Source of the DNA: Halolamina pelagica | GTDB taxonomy: Archaea; Halobacteriota; Halobacteria; Halobacteriales; Haloferacaceae | Assembly (NCBI RefSeq): GCF_900115675.1 | Contig: NZ_FOXI01000011.1 | Coordinates: 1 to 64,000, forward strand | DNA: 64,000 bases | Direction: 5' to 3' | Shown here: positions 38,135-46,668 of the stretch, piece by piece | How positions within the stretch are numbered: position 1 is the stretch's first letter | Layout: each line of letters starts with the position of its first letter | The notes under the pieces: model-generated | What the model saw: the letters and a program-made list of their open reading frames with translations, nothing else | Database searches by the model: none | What the model was told of the DNA's origin: nothing | Translations under genes and position numbers: made by a program

Positions 38135-39283
38135 TCACAGCGTCACTTCGTACTCTCCGACCTTCTCCTCGTCCAGACTGACACCCAGACCCGGGCCGGT
38201 CGGGACGGGAGTCAGACCGTCGGAGATTTCGAGCGGTGACTCCAACACCGTGTCGGTGAACAGGGTCGGCCCCTTCACGTCGCTCGGGTAAACCGCATTC
38301 GGCACGCTCGCGGCGAAGTGTGCCCCCGCAGCGGTTCCCACACCGAGTTCCACCATGCTCCCGACCGCGACGGGGAGCTGTGCCGCCGCTGCCGTCGAAG
38401 CGATCTGGCGACTGGGAACCAGCCCGCCCGCCTTCATGATCTTGATGTTGAGGATGTCCGCGGCGTTCCGGCTGGCGACGGTGTAGGCATCCTGGGGGCT
38501 GAAGGAGCTCTCGTCGGCGAGTACCGGCGTCTCCAGTGCGTCGGTGACCGCCCGCATGCCGTCGATGTCGTCGCGACTCACCGGCTGTTCGACCAGGAGG
38601 AGGTCGAGGTCCTGTTCGAGGTTGCGGAACAGGGGGATCGCCTGATCGACCGTGTACCCCTGGTTGGCATCGACACGGAGCGTGGTGTCCGCGTCAAGCG
38701 CATCCGCGATCGCCCGCGTGCGCTCGGCCGCCGTCGCGGGGTCGTCGCCGACTTTCACCTTGATCGAGACGAACCCGTCCGCGTGGGCGTACGTCTCGGC
38801 CTCCGCGACAGCCTCCTCGGTCGGTTTGATGCCGACCGACTGGCCCACCCTGATCGCGTCACGGACACGACCGCCGAGGAGTCGACTGACGGGGACGCCG
38901 AGCTGTTTACCCAGGGCATCGTGACAGGCGATGTCGACGGCCGTCTTCGCGAACGGGTTGCCGTTGATTGCCTCGGCCATGGCCTGATGAACAGCCCTGA
39001 GGTTCCCCGCGTCGGTCCCGACGAGCGCCTCCTCGATCTGTTCGATCGCGTGGACGACGCTCCCCGCCGTCTCCGCGGAGAAGAACGGCTTCGGGGACGC
39101 TTCACCCAGTCCGACGATACCGCCCGTCGTTCGGAGGTGTACCAGGACGTGCGTCGGCCGCTCCTGCCCGCCGCCCGAGATGTTGAAGTCCGTCGTCATC
39201 GGGACCGCGACGGGCGTCGTCTCGACGGCCTCGATGGTTAGCGCGTCGTCGCCGCCCTGCTGAGCTTGTGTCGTCCCCGTCAT
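38135..39283 (-). CDS. enolase-superfamily dipeptide epimerase (MR/MLE family)
   Basis: This is a 382-residue protein with the muconate lactonising barrel. SIKVKVGDDPAT gives the catalytic K175-x-K177, TLRVDANQGYT gives D204, LLVEQPVSRDDI gives E232, and ADESSFSP gives D257. NIKIMKAGGL (281-290) holds the second catalytic Lys. This Lys-on-both-faces layout is that of L-Ala-D/L-Glu-type dipeptide epimerases, although N-succinyl amino acid racemases look similar. The start is ATG 39283 and overlaps the creatininase gene by four bases, so the two are one translational unit. Substrate: probably a small N-acyl or dipeptide. Confidence 0.87.
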   Translation of the reverse strand: MTGTTQAQQGGDDALTIEAVETTPVAVPMTTDFNISGGGQERPTHVLVHLRTTGGIVGLGEASPKPFFSAETAGSVVHAIEQIEEALVGTDAGNLRAVHQAMAEAINGNPFAKTAVDIACHDALGKQLGVPVSRLLGGRVRDAIRVGQSVGIKPTEEAVAEAETYAHADGFVSIKVKVGDDPATAAERTRAIADALDADTTLRVDANQGYTVDQAIPLFRNLEQDLDLLLVEQPVSRDDIDGMRAVTDALETPVLADESSFSPQDAYTVASRNAADILNIKIMKAGGLVPSRQIASTAAAAQLPVAVGSMVELGVGTAAGAHFAASVPNAVYPSDVKGPTLFTDTVLESPLEISDGLTPVPTGPGLGVSLDEEKVGEYEVTL

Positions 39284-40020
39284 CGGTCGAGCTCCTCCCT
39301 GATCGCCCCAGCGTAGTAGGCCGTACAATCGTCGATCAGCGTCCTGCCGGCTGCACGGGTCGCGACGGTCTGATCCCCAAGCACGCCGTTCTCCGTGATG
39401 GCTGCGAGCCCGTCACGGATCACGGTCTCGGAGTCGACCGTTCCAACGTATCCCGCCGCGAGCTCGTCCCGACGGACGAGATCGGGCGTCGTCTCCATGA
39501 GGAACGACGTCTCCGCGCCGCCAGCGTGCTTGCCCGCCCGCTCGGGTGACACGCCGTGTTTCTCGAGCGCCCCGAAGCGCACGTCGATGAACTCCTCGCG
39601 GGAGCCGGCCACGAAGACGGTGGCCTCGAGCTCATCGTCCAGTTCCGGGGCGATGGTCTCCAGCGCCGCCGCGTTCCCGCCGTGTGTCGTGACGAGGGCG
39701 ATATCGTCGACGCCGTGGGCGTCGAGGCTCCGACAGTAGTCCCGGACCACCGACCGGAACGTGTCCTCGCCGAGCGAGATCGTCCCGGGGAAGGACATGT
39801 GGTGGTCGGACATGGCCGGCCTGATGGGCGGCGCCAGGAGACAGTCCAGCTCGTCGGCGAGTCGTTCGCCGAGTTCCCGTGCCCTGATCGCGTCGACGGC
39901 CAAGGGGAGTCCCGGGCCGTGCTGTTCGGTGCTACCCGCGACGACGAGCGCGAGCGTGGGGCCGTCGTCGAGGGCCGCCTCAACCTCTGGCCAAGTCATC
40001 TCCGGGAGGTATCCGGGCAT
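39280..40020 (-). CDS. creatininase-family amidohydrolase
   Basis: The protein has 246 residues. The metal motif is GSTEQHGPGLPLAVDA (E32, H34, D43). A second ligand block VTTHGGNAAALETIA holds the conserved His, and AGGAETSFLMET contributes the late Glu. Creatininase relatives open cyclic amides (creatinine, FAPy nucleotides) or cut peptide-like amides with two metals in a hexamer. It lies first in a two-gene unit with the epimerase and faces the ABC importer gene across a 116-base divergent promoter, so imported substrate is likely processed here. Start: ATG 40020. Confidence 0.88.
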   Translation of the reverse strand: MPGYLPEMTWPEVEAALDDGPTLALVVAGSTEQHGPGLPLAVDAIRARELGERLADELDCLLAPPIRPAMSDHHMSFPGTISLGEDTFRSVVRDYCRSLDAHGVDDIALVTTHGGNAAALETIAPELDDELEATVFVAGSREEFIDVRFGALEKHGVSPERAGKHAGGAETSFLMETTPDLVRRDELAAGYVGTVDSETVIRDGLAAITENGVLGDQTVATRAAGRTLIDDCTAYYAGAIREELDR

Positions 40021-40136
40021 GTTCCGAGTAGGTGGAACGACCCATTTAGCGGTTCAGTCGGAAATATCCGGGTGCAGCCCCACCCCGGAAATATCCGGTT
40101 CAAACCTTTTCGTCGGTGACTGTCGAGTGGCAACAC
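40021..40136. promoter_or_regulatory. divergent promoter with duplicated operator CGGAAATATCCGG
   Basis: Two identical 13-base sequences, CGGAAATATCCGG, lie at 40059-40071 and 40086-40098, 27 bases apart. Each is a near palindrome (only the central AATAT is off). On the minus strand CTAAAT (40044-40049) is the TATA-like element about 24 bases before the creatininase start, and the left copy lies ten bases beyond it. On the plus strand CCTTTTC (40105-40111) lies about 26 bases before the ABC binding-protein start, and the right copy lies just upstream. The layout suits a repressor or activator controlling both genes, possibly the HTH_10 protein at 45943. Confidence 0.7.
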
Positions 40137-41876
40137 ATGGCACAACAGCCAGGCGAACCGCGACTCGACCGACGGACCTTGCTCGAAAAGACCGGAGCGA
40201 CGACTGTCGCCGGCGCCATGGTCGCCCTCGCCGGGTGTGGGGGTGGCGGTGGGAACGGCGATGGCTCCCCGGAGGATGGCACCGACGAACGGGAGGGGAC
40301 GCCGGCAGAGGACCTCGAACGGATTGATTCCCTCAACTTCGTCACCTGGACCCAGAGCCAGAAGCCCGGGTACTTCGAACAGACCCGGATGATGCAGTCG
40401 GAGTTCGAGGAGCTCGGGATCCCCTCCGAACTCATCCCCCAGCAGTTCCCGCAGCCGTACACGAACACGCTGTTCGAGACGAGGGAGTACGACATGCTGA
40501 TGCTGGGGATGGAGGGGGCGGCGTACCGACTCGACCCGAGCTTCTACCTGAACACGGTGTTGCACTCCTCGAACGCCGAAACGGGCGGCTGGAACATCAG
40601 CGGGTTCGAGCACGACGAGCTCGACCAGCTCAGCGAGGAGCAGCAGCGCCTCATCGACCAGGAGGAGCGCCAGTCGGTCGTCTACGACATCCAGCGGATC
40701 CAGAAGGACCAACAGGCGTGGACGGTCTACCAGTCCCCGAACCTGGCGTCGGGCTTCAACTCGGACAACCTCGAACATCCCGGGGAGGAGAACACCGTCC
40801 CCGGTGAGGGGTTCTCGAGCCCGTTCACGCTCACCACGATCGAGACTACGGAGGGGGGTGAACTCGACTACGGGAAGGTGCTCACGAGCATCGACTCGTT
40901 CAACCCGCTACAGGCCGACAGCGCCGACGACATCCAGTTCATCGAGCCGTTCTACGACACGCTCACCAAGATCGGCCCCAGCGGCCGGGCGGAGAACTGG
41001 CTGGCCTCGGACGTGACCGTCGAGGACGACACGACGGTCGTGGTCACGCTGAAGGACGGCGTCACGTTCCACGACGGCGAGCCGGTCACCGCCGAGGACG
41101 TCGCCTTCTCCTACCGGTTCCAGCAGGAGAATAAGGCGCCGTACGTCGCGACCTACCTCGAACCGATGTCGGAGGTCACCGCGGGCGACGGCGAGGTGAC
41201 GTTCTCGCTCTCGGAGCCGTACGCCCCCTGGAGCACGCTCACGATGGGGCAGGTGCCGATCCTGCCCCGACACGTCTGGGAGAACGTCACCGAGGAGAAC
41301 GACATCTCCAACCCGGCGAACTACGAGAACAAGCCGCCGATCGGGAGCGGCCCCTTCGAGTTCAGCCGCCACCGGGACGGCTCGCTGCTCGAGATGACCG
41401 CCGTCGACGACCACCCGTTCGCCCCGAACATCGACACGTTCCGGTACCGGCTGTACGGGAACAAGAGCACCGCCCAGCAGGCGCTGCTCAACGGGGACAT
41501 CGACGTGCTCGACCAGCTGCCGAGTACGCTCCGGGGCGGCGTGCGCGACCAGAGCGGCCTCACGCTGAACTTCCAGACCCAGCACGGGCTGCGTACGCTG
41601 CTCCACAACGAGCGCCGCGGGATGCCGTTCACCGATCCCGCGTTCCGACGGGCGCTCTCGTACCTGATCCCGCGCCAGCGCATCGTCAACCAGGTCTACG
41701 ACGGGGAGGCGACCCGCGGGGGGAGCATCATCGCCCAGGGGAACGAGTTCTGGCACAACCCCGAGGTCAGCCCCAACACCTACGACCCGGAGCAGGCCCG
41801 GACGATCCTCGAGGAGGCCGGCTACGCGTGGGACGACGACGGCCGGCTCATGTACCCGACTGACGGGTCCAACTAA
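40137..41876 (+). CDS. ABC importer substrate-binding lipoprotein, family 5 (circularly permuted)
   Basis: The 579-residue protein has a Tat signal (DRRTLLEKTGATTVAG) and lipobox LAGC (C34), so it is a lipoprotein. Family 5 domains are in rearranged order. Residues about 62-215 hold the part normally C-terminal (SEFEELGIPSELI, MLMLGMEGAAYRLDP, ISGFEHDELDQLSEEQQRLI). Residues about 243-579 hold the part normally N-terminal (LKDGVTFHDGEPVTAEDVAF, IGSGPFEFSRH, ALLNGDIDVLDQL, FRRALSYLIPRQRIV). The end, YDPEQARTILEEAGY, is where the usual C-terminal lobe would follow. Start: ATG 40137, though GTG 40116 would add seven residues. It begins an operon with two permeases and two ATPases. Confidence 0.9.
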   Translation: MAQQPGEPRLDRRTLLEKTGATTVAGAMVALAGCGGGGGNGDGSPEDGTDEREGTPAEDLERIDSLNFVTWTQSQKPGYFEQTRMMQSEFEELGIPSELIPQQFPQPYTNTLFETREYDMLMLGMEGAAYRLDPSFYLNTVLHSSNAETGGWNISGFEHDELDQLSEEQQRLIDQEERQSVVYDIQRIQKDQQAWTVYQSPNLASGFNSDNLEHPGEENTVPGEGFSSPFTLTTIETTEGGELDYGKVLTSIDSFNPLQADSADDIQFIEPFYDTLTKIGPSGRAENWLASDVTVEDDTTVVVTLKDGVTFHDGEPVTAEDVAFSYRFQQENKAPYVATYLEPMSEVTAGDGEVTFSLSEPYAPWSTLTMGQVPILPRHVWENVTEENDISNPANYENKPPIGSGPFEFSRHRDGSLLEMTAVDDHPFAPNIDTFRYRLYGNKSTAQQALLNGDIDVLDQLPSTLRGGVRDQSGLTLNFQTQHGLRTLLHNERRGMPFTDPAFRRALSYLIPRQRIVNQVYDGEATRGGSIIAQGNEFWHNPEVSPNTYDPEQARTILEEAGYAWDDDGRLMYPTDGSN

Positions 41877-41879
41877 CCA

Positions 41880-42854
41880 ATGGGTGCGAAAGGGTACATC
41901 GCCCGGCGAGCAGCTCAATCCGTCGTCACGATCTTCGTCGTGGCGGTGCTGATGTTCGTGCTGTTCCGGCTGATGCCCGGCGACCCGACTGCCGTCGCGC
42001 TGAGCCCTGCGCTCGACGAGAGCGTCCAGCAGGAGATGGCTCGACAGTACGGCCTGAACCAGCCGCTCCACATCCAGTTCATCCGGTACATGGCCAGCGT
42101 GGTCACGCTGGACTTCGGCTACTCGTTCTTCCAGAACGAGCCCGTCCGGGACATCCTCATGCGCCGCATCGGGAACACGCTGCTCCTGATGGGGACCGGG
42201 CTCCTGCTGGCGTACGCCTTCGGCACGTCGATCGGCGCGCTCGCCGCCTGGAAGCGCGGGTCGTTCGACACGCGGGTGCTCGTCTCGGCCGTCCTGTTCC
42301 GGTCGACGCCGGTGTTCTGGCTCGCGCTCGTCCTCCTGTACGTCTTCGGGTTCCACCTCGAGTGGTTCCCGATCGGCCACATGGTGGACGCCGAGGCCAC
42401 GTACAGCGGGTTCCTCGACAAGGTGTTCTCGGTCGACTTCCTGCACCACCTGGTCCTGCCGGTGCTCTCGACGGTGCCGTTCTACATGGCCTACCCCCTG
42501 TTGCTCATGCGGACCACGATGCTGCGCATCGAGGGGGAGGACTTCATCACGATGGCCCACGCGAAGGGGGTCCGCGACCGGGACGTGTTCGCGAAACACG
42601 CCGCCCGGAACTCCCTGTTGCCGATCGTGACCACGGCGCCGATCGTGGTCGGCCTGGCCGTGGCCGGGAACGTCCTCGTCGAGACGATCTACTCCTGGCC
42701 CGGCGTGGGCCGGACCCTCGTCCAAGCGGTTCTCCAGTCCGACTACCCGCTGGCACAGGCCGCGTTCCTCATGATCGCGGTCATCGTCATCGTCGGCAAC
42801 TTCGTCGCCGACCTGCTGTACACCGTTATCGACCCCCGAATCACGTATGACTGA
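41880..42854 (+). CDS. dipeptide-type ABC transporter permease, DppB family
   Basis: This is a 324-residue inner subunit with six helices: RRAAQSVVTIFVVAVLMFVL at the N-terminus, MPGDPTAVALSP, GLNQPLHIQFIRYMASV, and the EAA loop DFITMAHAKGVRDRDVFAKH, then YSWPGVGRTLVQAVLQSDYP. It forms the channel with DppC. It follows the binding protein by three bases. The substrate is set by that protein, so unknown. Confidence 0.93.
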   Translation: MGAKGYIARRAAQSVVTIFVVAVLMFVLFRLMPGDPTAVALSPALDESVQQEMARQYGLNQPLHIQFIRYMASVVTLDFGYSFFQNEPVRDILMRRIGNTLLLMGTGLLLAYAFGTSIGALAAWKRGSFDTRVLVSAVLFRSTPVFWLALVLLYVFGFHLEWFPIGHMVDAEATYSGFLDKVFSVDFLHHLVLPVLSTVPFYMAYPLLLMRTTMLRIEGEDFITMAHAKGVRDRDVFAKHAARNSLLPIVTTAPIVVGLAVAGNVLVETIYSWPGVGRTLVQAVLQSDYPLAQAAFLMIAVIVIVGNFVADLLYTVIDPRITYD

Positions 42855-42869
42855 TAGTTGGTACTCCTC

Positions 42870-43790
42870 ATGAGCACGATACCGATCGACGGCGACACGC
42901 GAGCCGGATCACTGCTGGACAGCCTCAGCGAGCTGGCGATGCGCCCGTACCGCATCCTCCGGGGCAACCGGATGGGCGAGGTCGGGCTCGTCATCCTGCT
43001 GGGACTGCTGGTGCTGGCGATGATCGGGCCGGCGATCGCCCCCTACGACCCGGCGACGAAGGACATCAACGAGGACGGCACGCTGGCGTCCAACGAGGGG
43101 CCCTCAGCGGAACACCCCCTCGGCACCACCAGATACGGCCGTGACGTGCTGTCCCAACTGTTGGTCGGGACCCGTAGCGCCCTCCTGGTCGGCTTCCTCA
43201 CCGCAACCATCGTCGTCGTGACGGGGACGACGGTGGGGCTGACGGCCGGCTACTACGGCGGTTGGGTCGACAGCATCCTGATGCGGATCACCGACATCGT
43301 CTACGGCATCCCGATACTCCCGTTCGCCATCATCGTCCTCACGATGCTCGAGCGGTCCATCTTCTGGATCATCTTCATGCTCGGGTTGATCTACTGGCGC
43401 AACTGTGCCCGGATCATCCGGAGCGAGGTGCTCTCGCTCAAGGAGAACGAGTTCGTCCAGAGTGCCGAGACGACCGGGGCCAGCGCCCCGCGCATCATCG
43501 TCAAACAGCTGTTGCCCAACGTGCTGCCCATCTCGTTCCTGTACTTCGCCTTCGCGACGGGGTGGTCCATCGTCACCGCCGCGAGCATCGCGTTCCTCGG
43601 GTTCGGCGACCCGACCCGGGTCTCCTGGGGGCGGATGATGTTCGCCGCCTGGAACACGAACTCCGTGCTCCAGCAGCCGCTCTGGGTGGCCATGCCCGGG
43701 CTGATGATCATCCTGACGGTGGCGTCGGTGTACTTCATCGGTCGAACGTACGAACAGGTCGCGAACCCGCGTCTGCAAGGTGATTCCTGA
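42870..43790 (+). CDS. dipeptide-type ABC transporter permease, DppC family
   Basis: The protein has 306 residues. An N-terminal helix (GEVGLVILLGLLVLAMIGPA) is followed by the family loop APYDPATKDINEDG and HPLGTTRYGRDVLSQLLVGT, then the EAA motif ENEFVQSAETTGASAPRIIV. Sequence and length are those of DppC/OppC. The ATG at 42870 is used. Its stop TGA overlaps the start of the next gene (TGATG at 43788-43792), so translation is coupled. Confidence 0.93.
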   Translation: MSTIPIDGDTRAGSLLDSLSELAMRPYRILRGNRMGEVGLVILLGLLVLAMIGPAIAPYDPATKDINEDGTLASNEGPSAEHPLGTTRYGRDVLSQLLVGTRSALLVGFLTATIVVVTGTTVGLTAGYYGGWVDSILMRITDIVYGIPILPFAIIVLTMLERSIFWIIFMLGLIYWRNCARIIRSEVLSLKENEFVQSAETTGASAPRIIVKQLLPNVLPISFLYFAFATGWSIVTAASIAFLGFGDPTRVSWGRMMFAAWNTNSVLQQPLWVAMPGLMIILTVASVYFIGRTYEQVANPRLQGDS

Positions 43791-44884
43791 TGTTGTTAGA
43801 GATCGAGGACCTCCGGACGACCTACACGGACAGCAGCACCGAGAGCACAGTCACGGCCGTCGACGGCGTCTCCTTCGAGATCGAGGAGGGGGAGTCGTTC
43901 GGCCTGGTCGGCGAGAGCGGCTGTGGGAAGTCGACGATCGCCAAGAGCGTCATGCGGATCCTCCCCGACAACGGGCGAATCACCGACGGGGCCGTCCGGC
44001 TCAACGGCGAGGACCTCACCGAACTGGACGCGGAGCCCATGCGCCAGCGCCGATGGACCGACATCGCACTCATCAGTCAGAGCGCGATGAACGCGCTCGA
44101 TCCCGTCTACACCGTCGATACCCAGATCAAGGAGGCCATCGAGGCCCACGAGTCCTGGAGCGAGCAGCGGATGGACGACCGGGTGGTCGAACTGTTCGAA
44201 CTCGTCGGGATCGACCCCGAGCGTCGCCACGACTACCCCCACCAGTTCAGCGGGGGGATGAAGCAGCGGGCGATGATCGCGATGGCGCTCGTGCTCGATC
44301 CGGACCTCATCATCGCCGACGAGCCGACGACCGCGCTCGACGTCATCAGCCAGGACACGATCCTCCACCACCTGGAGGAACTCCAGGCCGAGACGGGGGC
44401 GTCGATGCTGCTCATCACGCACGACATGAGCGTCGTCGCGGAGATGTGTGACCGTACCGCCGTGATGTACGCCGGGGAGCTGGCCGAACGCGGCCCCACG
44501 GAGACCATCTTCACGAACCCCTACCACCCGTACACGCTCGGGTTGAAGAACGCCTTCCCCAGCATCCACGGGGGGGCGGATTCGCTTATCTCCATCCCGG
44601 GGGCGCCGCCACCCCTGACCGATCCGGCGGACGCCTGCCGGTTCGCCGACCGGTGCCCGTTCGCGGCCCCGGAGTGTCGCTCGAGCGACCCGCCGATGAA
44701 GGAGGTCGCCGACGAGCACGAAGCCGCCTGCGCCCGGATCGACGACGTGGGGATCGAGACGATGCGGGAACAGGCCGCCAAGCGTGAAGTCTGGCACGGC
44801 GTCGACGACGCGCCAGACGGCGCGAGTGCCGGCGATGGGGCGGCCTCGGCCCCGACCGAGGTCTCCGGGGGTGATTCGGCGTGA
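43790..44884 (+). CDS. dipeptide-type ABC transporter ATP-binding protein, DppD family
   Basis: This 364-residue ATPase has Walker A GESGCGKSTIAK, the signature QFSGGMKQRAMIAMAL, Walker B DPDLIIADEPTTALD and the switch His in LLITHDMSVVAEM. The C-terminal oligopeptide/dipeptide extension (ACRFADRCPFAAPECRSSDP) has four cysteines that probably bind an iron-sulphur cluster, as in many DppD proteins. A low-complexity tail (DGASAGDGAASAPTEVSGGD) is unusual. Start overlaps the permease stop; the next gene starts GTG at 44881, overlapping by four bases. Confidence 0.93.
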   Translation: MLLEIEDLRTTYTDSSTESTVTAVDGVSFEIEEGESFGLVGESGCGKSTIAKSVMRILPDNGRITDGAVRLNGEDLTELDAEPMRQRRWTDIALISQSAMNALDPVYTVDTQIKEAIEAHESWSEQRMDDRVVELFELVGIDPERRHDYPHQFSGGMKQRAMIAMALVLDPDLIIADEPTTALDVISQDTILHHLEELQAETGASMLLITHDMSVVAEMCDRTAVMYAGELAERGPTETIFTNPYHPYTLGLKNAFPSIHGGADSLISIPGAPPPLTDPADACRFADRCPFAAPECRSSDPPMKEVADEHEAACARIDDVGIETMREQAAKREVWHGVDDAPDGASAGDGAASAPTEVSGGDSA

Positions 44885-45900
44885 CGGTGCTGGAACTGGA
44901 CGACGCCTCGAAGTTCTTCCGGACCCAGACCGGGTTGGGCGCCCTGCTGTCGCGCGACCAGGAGTACGTCAAGGCGGTCAACGACGTCAGCCTCCAGCTC
45001 GACGACGGCGAGATCGTCGGCCTGGTCGGCGAGAGCGGCTGCGGGAAGACCACCCTCGGGAAGGTAGTCATGCGGATCCACGAGCTGACTGACGGGGAGA
45101 TCACGCTCCACGGCACGCCCATCGAGGAGTACGGGCGCAAGGAGTACTTCCAGGAGGTCCAGATGGTCTTCCAGGACCCGTTCAAGTCGCTGAACCCGCA
45201 GATGACCGTGCGCGAGCAGCTGGCCGAGCCGCTGAAGGTGCACGGGCACGACGACCGCGAGGAGCGGATCCGGGAGTCCCTGGAGTTCGCGAACCTGACG
45301 CCGCCCGACCAGTACCTGGATCGGTACCCCCACGAGATCTCCGGCGGCGAGAAGCAACGCGTCGCGATCGCCCGGGCGCTCGTCCTGGATCCCTCGGTCA
45401 TCATCGCGGACGAGCCGGTCTCGATGCTCGACGTCTCCATCCGGGCCGGGGTGCTGAACCTCTTCCGCCAGCTCGCCGAGGAGCGGGACGTGACGATCCT
45501 CTACATCTCCCACGACCTGGCGACCGTCCGCCATATCTGTACCGAGATCGCGGTCATGTACCTCGGGAAAGTGATGGAGTACGGGCCGACGGAGCGGATC
45601 TGCTCGACGCCCAGTCACCCCTACACCGAGCGGCTGTTGAGTGCGACGCCCGTGGCGGATCCGACCCACGACCGGTCGAAGGTCGTCTACGACGAGGAAG
45701 TCCCGGACCCGGTCGATCTCCCCGACGGCTGCTTCTTCAAGCACCGGTGTGAGTTCGCGACCGAGGCCTGTGACGAGGAGGACATGCACCTCCGCCCGCC
45801 CGCGAAAGCGGAGGCCGACGACGAAGACTGGCTCATGGCGTGTCACCGGGCAGCCGACGGGGACCTCGACTGGGAAACGATCCCGTCACACAATCTCTAA
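44881..45900 (+). CDS. dipeptide-type ABC transporter ATP-binding protein, DppF family
   Basis: This is a 339-residue ATPase with GESGCGKTTLGK (Walker A), EISGGEKQRVAIARAL (signature), DPSVIIADEPVSMLD (Walker B) and LYISHDLATVRHI (switch His). The C-terminal extension ends with CFFKHRCEFATEACDEED, again a Cys-rich motif. It pairs with the DppD protein to drive import. Start is the GTG at 44881 overlapping the previous gene; it ends the importer operon, 42 bases before the regulator gene. Confidence 0.93.
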   Translation: MTVLELDDASKFFRTQTGLGALLSRDQEYVKAVNDVSLQLDDGEIVGLVGESGCGKTTLGKVVMRIHELTDGEITLHGTPIEEYGRKEYFQEVQMVFQDPFKSLNPQMTVREQLAEPLKVHGHDDREERIRESLEFANLTPPDQYLDRYPHEISGGEKQRVAIARALVLDPSVIIADEPVSMLDVSIRAGVLNLFRQLAEERDVTILYISHDLATVRHICTEIAVMYLGKVMEYGPTERICSTPSHPYTERLLSATPVADPTHDRSKVVYDEEVPDPVDLPDGCFFKHRCEFATEACDEEDMHLRPPAKAEADDEDWLMACHRAADGDLDWETIPSHNL

Positions 45901-45942
45901 CGGGCGAAATACTCTTCACCCGGGGTGGGGGTAACACAACAC

Positions 45943-46668
45943 ATGGCAACTGATAACTCGACACAGGTGCCGGCCGTCGATGACGGGCAGATATTCCGAG
46001 CCTCCCTGGATATCGCCCATCACGGGTGCCCGAACTCGGACGTGACCGAGGTCTACCCCGCGGCCAGGATCGAGAGCGTCTCCGACGCCCACGTGGAGGA
46101 AGCACAGAAGAAGCAGCTGCTCCGACTGGAGACGGAGCGTGTCCCGGTCGAACAGTTCGTCTCGACTTACGAAGCCCACGAAATCGTTACCGACGTGGCG
46201 GTTTATCCCCACGTCGGGTCAGATCACGTGGCACACCTTTCGACGACGATCGATTACGCGCCGCTGACCAGTGTGAGCCAGATCCTCGCCGACCACGGCG
46301 CCTACCGCGGCCACGGTGCGACCGCGTCGAACGGGAGCGAGAAGTGGTGGGTGTTCTTCGAGTCTCACGAGACCCTCAGCGAGATCATCGAGGACCTCGA
46401 AGCCGAGGGGAGCGACGTTCGGATCAGACGGAAGGAGCGGGTTACGCTCCAGAGCGAGCAGTCGCCCCAGTCCCCGCTCACGGAGTTGAGCCCGCGCCAG
46501 CGCGAGACACTCTTGGTCGCCCAGGAACTGGGTTACTTCGGACCGAACGAGGGGGCCACGCTCGAGGACATCGCGGCGGAACTCGACCTCTCGACGTCCT
46601 CCGTCTGGGAGCACCTCTCGAAAGCGACCGAACAGGTGATCGGCCAAGTGACCGCCAACTACCAGTGA
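45943..46668 (+). CDS. HTH_10 (bacterio-opsin activator-like) transcriptional regulator
   Basis: The protein has 241 residues. The C-terminal region (about 180-241) contains LTELSPRQRETLLVAQELGY and ATLEDIAAELDLSTSSVWEH, the HTH_10 helix-turn-helix of the Bat family, ending in a helix EQVIGQVTANYQ. The N-terminal half is a beta-rich sensing domain (FRASLDIAHHGCPNSDV; EIVTDVAVYPHVGSDHVAHL). It follows the ABC operon by 42 bases and is probably its regulator, with CGGAAATATCCGG as the candidate site. Start is ATG 45943. Confidence 0.88.
   Translation: MATDNSTQVPAVDDGQIFRASLDIAHHGCPNSDVTEVYPAARIESVSDAHVEEAQKKQLLRLETERVPVEQFVSTYEAHEIVTDVAVYPHVGSDHVAHLSTTIDYAPLTSVSQILADHGAYRGHGATASNGSEKWWVFFESHETLSEIIEDLEAEGSDVRIRRKERVTLQSEQSPQSPLTELSPRQRETLLVAQELGYFGPNEGATLEDIAAELDLSTSSVWEHLSKATEQVIGQVTANYQ

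Follow-up and report, generated by a model that had tools for sequence, protein, structure and literature searches.

Does the window, the whole stretch of 64,000 nucleotides analysed here, encode a substrate-binding protein (SBP) whose two parts have exchanged places along the chain, and if so, how did the exchange arise and what does it mean for transport? Family-5 SBPs rank with the most common transport proteins, and their annotation assumes one architecture. The original prediction held that one gene of the window encodes a circularly permuted family-5 SBP in which both parts are complete. We conclude with high confidence that its product serves an Opp/Dpp-type ABC importer as the substrate-binding lipoprotein and that this lipoprotein is a genuine circular permutant of the family-5 (cluster C) fold. 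The SBP ORF encodes 579 aa from an ATG at 40137 and 586 aa from an in-frame GTG at 40116; residues are counted from the GTG, and numbering from the ATG is lower by 7. The parts of the gene and two unpermuted relatives are as follows.

40137..41876 (+), circularly permuted family-5 substrate-binding lipoprotein gene (ORF, PF00496, two-part HMMs, profile-profile alignment)
40137..40238 (+), twin-arginine signal (DRRTLL) and lipobox ALAGC with lipid-anchor Cys41, GTG numbering (from the sequence)
40311..40853 (+), canonical C-terminal third, placed first, aa 66-246 (DppA 355-488; canonical columns 375-520)
40515..40538 (+), GAAYRLDP, an instance of G..(.)R.[DE]P, near the position of DppA D408 (motif count)
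40842..40859 (+), fusion joint of old C-terminus to old N-terminus with few linker residues (joint alignments)
40851..41828 (+), canonical N-terminal two thirds, placed last, aa 246-571 (Pfam, two-part HMMs, profile-profile alignment)
41829..41876 (+), new C-terminal tail AWDDDGRLMYPTDGSN and stop, with the cut at about DppA 341-345 (tail alignment with DppA and the unpermuted sister L177)
G004:C1:1433000-1441500, locus of the unpermuted SBP L177 (SBP gene on the minus strand) from the same genus as the window, canonical order, permease sister to the permuted-linked clade
L178, 1810-6594, unpermuted SBP from the same phylum as the window, canonical order, permease sister to the permuted-linked clade

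Positions 3-285 of PF00496, which has 368 positions, matched aa 293-577 of the window SBP (E=1.4e-61; 209.1 bits against a gathering cut-off of 32.4), and the profile stopped there. Canonical haloarchaeal SBPs were cut at the equivalent point to give separate N-part and C-part profiles. The N-part profile matched aa 246-571 (E=2.7e-67) and the C-part profile matched aa 92-217 (E=1.2e-12), ahead of the N-part, whereas canonical paralogues in the same genome gave the two matches in the reverse order. In profile-profile alignment, aa 66-246 and the remainder of the protein aligned with columns 375-520 and 46-365 of a DppA-type canonical alignment (E=1.4e-23 and 1e-64, respectively), so that almost the entire canonical chain is present once, with its order swapped. 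When aa 66-246 and 16 relatives were used as a profile against all PDB chains, the best matches were the C-terminal thirds of family-5 SBPs, among them residues 355-488 of DppA (1dpp; E=5e-20), and the whole-length profile gave two matches to B. subtilis AppA, with their order swapped. The canonical order of segments is violated, with the C-part (aa 66-246) ahead of the N-part (aa 246-571), and the signal peptide with its lipobox precedes the moved third.

The same C-part-first order was found in 145 ORFs, several of them repeat fetches of one locus, and no profile match to a second C-part after the N-part was obtained in any permuted protein of this set. Chance is ruled out by the E-values together with these 145 ORFs. 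A single ORF in which both parts are complete, the old termini are joined and the moved part is unrepeated satisfies the criteria for a natural circular permutant. Permutation without truncation was therefore confirmed by the two-part HMMs, the PDB profile search and the coverage of both column ranges, and neither of the results that would have refuted it was found, whether an additional domain next to a full canonical fold or another C-terminal third past residue 579. A profile built in the canonical order stops matching at the cut, and domain annotation can easily miss the moved C-part as a result.

The break had been predicted to lie after the EAGY helix, and alignment of the tail with DppA and L177 agreed. 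The segment past this helix, WDDDGRLMYP, aligned with a turn that continues into the strand LELVISI in L177, whose sequence runs unbroken through the cut site. In OppA, domain III comprises residues 270-486 and domain I holds both termini, at 1-44 and 487-517 (PMC6305025). Given these limits and the cut at about DppA 341-345, homology places the new termini in domain III and the fused old termini in domain I. The N-terminus, and the lipid anchor with it, would be shifted to the opposite lobe, an inference from homology that was not measured on the model. The joint segment was 135-145 aa in all groups, with the same length in archaea and bacteria, and the joint profile scored at least 101 bits in permuted and at most 52 bits in canonical proteins.

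A complete five-gene Opp/Dpp-type importer (SBP, two permeases and two ATPases) was identified at 40137-45900, with the permease starting 3 bp past the SBP stop codon. Relatives had the same importer gene content. The genes and sites around the SBP are the following.

38135..39328 (-), enolase-superfamily (MR/MLE) enzyme (L-Ala-D/L-Glu epimerase and muconate cycloisomerase models, below cut-offs)
39280..40020 (-), creatininase-family amidohydrolase, divergent neighbour (PF02633, E=8.6e-63)
40060-40071 and 40087-40098 (+), two copies of the direct repeat GGAAATATCCGG, candidate operator upstream of the SBP gene (repeat count)
41880..42854 (+), DppB/OppB-type permease of the permuted-linked permease clade (PF00528; trees)
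42858..43790 (+), DppC/OppC-type permease (PF00528, PF12911)
43790..44884 (+), DppD/OppD-type ATPase (PF00005, PF08352)
44881..45900 (+), DppF/OppF-type ATPase (PF00005, PF08352)

The repeat GGAAATATCCGG was observed 2 times in the window against 0.09 expected, and the pair is unique in the genome; lying in the divergent promoter region, it is a candidate operator of the importer genes, the creatininase gene or both. A regulator gene of the HTH_10 (bacterio-opsin-activator) type lies directly 3' of the importer genes (45925-46668). Neighbours of the relatives encoded M28 and M20 peptidases, hydantoinase/oxoprolinase, Asp/Glu/hydantoin racemase, dipeptide epimerase, D-aminoacylase and creatininase. 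Based on these neighbouring amidohydrolases, peptidases and epimerases or racemases, the cargo is likely to be short peptides or other amide-linked, D- or racemised amino-acid derivatives, although this guess rests on neighbour genes only and is weak and of low confidence. The motif G..(.)R.[DE]P was present in 106 of 133 permuted but in only 1 of 25 canonical sequences, and its Arg, near the position of DppA D408, is a candidate that may bind a carboxylate. DppA R355 and D408, the ligands of the dipeptide termini and a feature of dipeptide binders, were not conserved in permuted sequences and were poorly conserved among canonical controls as well.

Three of the eleven family-5 SBPs in the window genome are permuted. 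Of the 292 haloarchaeal genomes sampled, 173 contained the permuted arrangement by the joint profile, as did 60 of 77 genera. Among Halobacteriota outside the Halobacteria, the sole match listed (L178, in genome G436) was to the C-part only, in a protein of canonical order; the C-part-only match in genome G004 was L177, also canonical. Full-length matches on plasmids occurred only in haloarchaea and Alphaproteobacteria, among the matches listed. As a single-sequence query in the genome scan, the window protein retrieved no relatives, and an alignment of the C-terminal third then gave matches. A motif scan of GTDB genomes with this third gave 187 loci, of which 80 were kept, and all 80 had the permuted order with an unrepeated C-part. 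They were mostly from Alphaproteobacteria, and also from Trueperaceae (including one on a complete chromosome), Thermomicrobiales and some soil MAGs, although the taxonomy of MAGs may be erroneous. The bacterial relatives found by scanning include members of Alphaproteobacteria, Deinococcota and Chloroflexota, and this breadth is a lower bound because the scan with the C-terminal third catches mainly one subfamily. The wider haloarchaeal clade that the original prediction had suggested does exist, and its breadth, including Alphaproteobacteria and other bacteria, goes beyond that guess.

In Neorhizobium galegae VafX2 (L077, 6688-8341), the permuted gene is annotated in two frameshift-like pieces, a hypothetical protein and an SBP. 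One permuted subfamily (L011 and L033) had no adjoining permease, so a role in ABC import is not necessary for every member. In a permuted subfamily carrying the motif WQNPFG, a PAP2-family membrane protein and no DppB-like permease adjoined the SBP gene at the two loci examined, L179 (G000:C18, 3637-4500) and L180 (7089-7943); at L180, two permuted SBPs flank the PAP2-family protein. The SBP-like lipoproteins of this subfamily may have a non-transport role.

Permeases linked to permuted SBPs formed one clade (100/97, bootstrap 100). The permeases of the canonical SBPs L177 and L178 were its sister (99/91), and the joined group was supported at 100/99. As these sister permeases serve canonical SBPs, the transporter lineage seems to have split off first and the permutation to have come later; L177 and L178 are living relatives of the pre-permutation state. 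This order of events bears on whether the permutation is functional, with the anchor on the other lobe altering how the SBP is seated on a co-adapted permease. The separate permease clade has diagnostic residues consistent with this, including a position that is Arg in 20 of 20 canonical permeases and Leu in 99% of permuted-linked permeases, the meaning of which is unknown; however, the permease lineage had already split before the permutation. The DppB scoop of E. coli DppABCDF contacts both lobes of the binding protein (PMC12136057), but variation in scoop residues did not separate permuted-linked from canonical permeases. Joint loss of DppB scoop E41/R42 and DppA R355/D408 was also considered and was dropped, as canonical controls vary too.

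By regular expression, a lipobox was present in 56 of 58 haloarchaeal permuted SBPs, 55 of these 56 also carrying a twin-arginine motif, which counts in favour of a functional permutation; only 3 of 70 permuted SBPs of Pseudomonadota from the genome scan had a lipobox. With nearly all bacterial members lacking it, anchoring is unlikely to be the reason for the permutation, and the permutation as a general consequence of lipid anchoring was rejected. Taken together, we regard a functional permutation as rather unlikely. We put forward only tentatively, as possible but doubtful, an unrecognised Opp/Dpp importer subtype ('cluster Cc') in archaea and bacteria that combines a permuted SBP with a co-adapted permease and an altered docking geometry or anchor position. 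If this were true, the docking geometry of lobe to permease, or the anchor position, would be unlike that of every characterised family-5 transporter.

The permutation probably arose once, inside a transporter lineage whose permease type was already distinct. In a tree of rotated sequences, a branch (SH-aLRT 93) set the permuted SBPs apart from the others, and archaeal and bacterial members were interleaved, with the window SBP closest to that of Maritalea (98). When the unpermuted sisters were included in the SBP tree, support fell to 67. The tree of the SBP N-part alone required two changes of the permuted label, as would be expected if the same loop had been opened independently several times in haloarchaea and bacteria; however, a single clade was not rejected (AU p=0.49), and the permease tree shows one clade. 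The joint and the cut are also identical across members, and the interleaving of archaeal and bacterial members, such as the window SBP with Maritalea, likewise makes independent permutations improbable.

Circular permutants usually arise when a gene is duplicated, the copies fuse and the outer parts are lost. For the single origin preferred here, this route is probable but inferred: a tandem duplication would have been fused in frame and then trimmed of its outer parts. Only a few residues join the old C- and N-termini in domain I, and the chain now opens in the loop that precedes the strand at about DppA 345, which in OppA belongs to domain III. The permuted lineage is then inferred to have moved between archaea and bacteria.

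AlphaFold2, with an input alignment of 17 sequences, all permuted, predicted the window SBP as one compact protein (mean pLDDT 84.6, pTM 0.82). Blocks of aa 71-250 had pLDDT values of 81-97, and residues 1-64 were the sole long segment of low confidence. Order-dependent Foldseek aligned about 340-390 columns of canonical family-5 SBPs with the whole model and left about one third of it unaligned. An unaligned third could suggest that the moved part is an accessory domain and that the canonical C-part was lost or is supplied in trans, but this is very hard to credit: the moved third is the canonical C-part by sequence, the model packs the whole chain as one protein, and no C-part was found after the N-part or downstream. 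Modelled alone, the third was predicted less well (pLDDT 71), and its top 20 PDB matches in Foldseek were all family-5 SBPs. The permuted protein is inferred to fold like OppA and DppA and to close on its ligand as a Venus flytrap, in the absence of a solved permuted structure and of an order-independent superposition. An assembly artefact, or an ORF phase within a tandem SBP array, can be dismissed outright, since nothing was found in its support, the order and joint are common to loci of many species, the signal peptide stands ahead of the moved third, the flanks contain no SBP fragments, and the divergent creatininase gene upstream and the permease 3 bp after the stop leave no room for an array.

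The DppA/OppA family (PF00496; E. coli DppA, 1dpp; B. subtilis AppA, 1xoc) is homologous to both parts of the window SBP and shares its operon of an SBP, two permeases and two ATPases, but the order of the parts is reversed in the window SBP, whose new termini lie at about DppA 341-345. Against the NCBIfam equivalog models for named SBPs, the window SBP scored well short of the cut-offs. L177 and L178 have sister permeases next door but canonical SBPs. No permuted cluster C SBP was found in the PDB profile search or in the open-licence PMC literature; SBP permutation is known in cluster B, and within the open-licence literature searched we found no earlier description of a permuted family-5 (cluster C) SBP. 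With its probable single origin, unpermuted sisters and dedicated permeases, the permuted branch makes the role of chain order and anchor in docking directly testable.

The closest known parallel is TpMglB-2 (Tp0684) of Treponema pallidum, a 'Type Ic / Cluster Bc' SBP with a natural circular permutation, which retains ligand binding and closure and for which homologues of the same topology were reported (PMC4990184). TpMglB-2 and the window SBP are both permuted SBPs of ABC importers, and both are lipoproteins. TpMglB-2, however, has the cluster B (type I) sugar-binding fold with the N-lobe strand order 5-4-6-1-2-3, whereas the window clade belongs to cluster C; assignment of the window SBP to Cluster Bc was rejected, as its best structural and sequence matches were cluster C family-5 SBPs. 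The authors of the TpMglB-2 study asked whether permutation suits an SBP to tethering (PMC4990184), and the clade described here tests that proposal. Relatives of TpMglB-2 are mostly tethered, whereas the bacterial members of the window clade are mostly untethered, and the presence of permutation in cluster C proteins without a lipid anchor argues against adaptation to tethering as a general rule.
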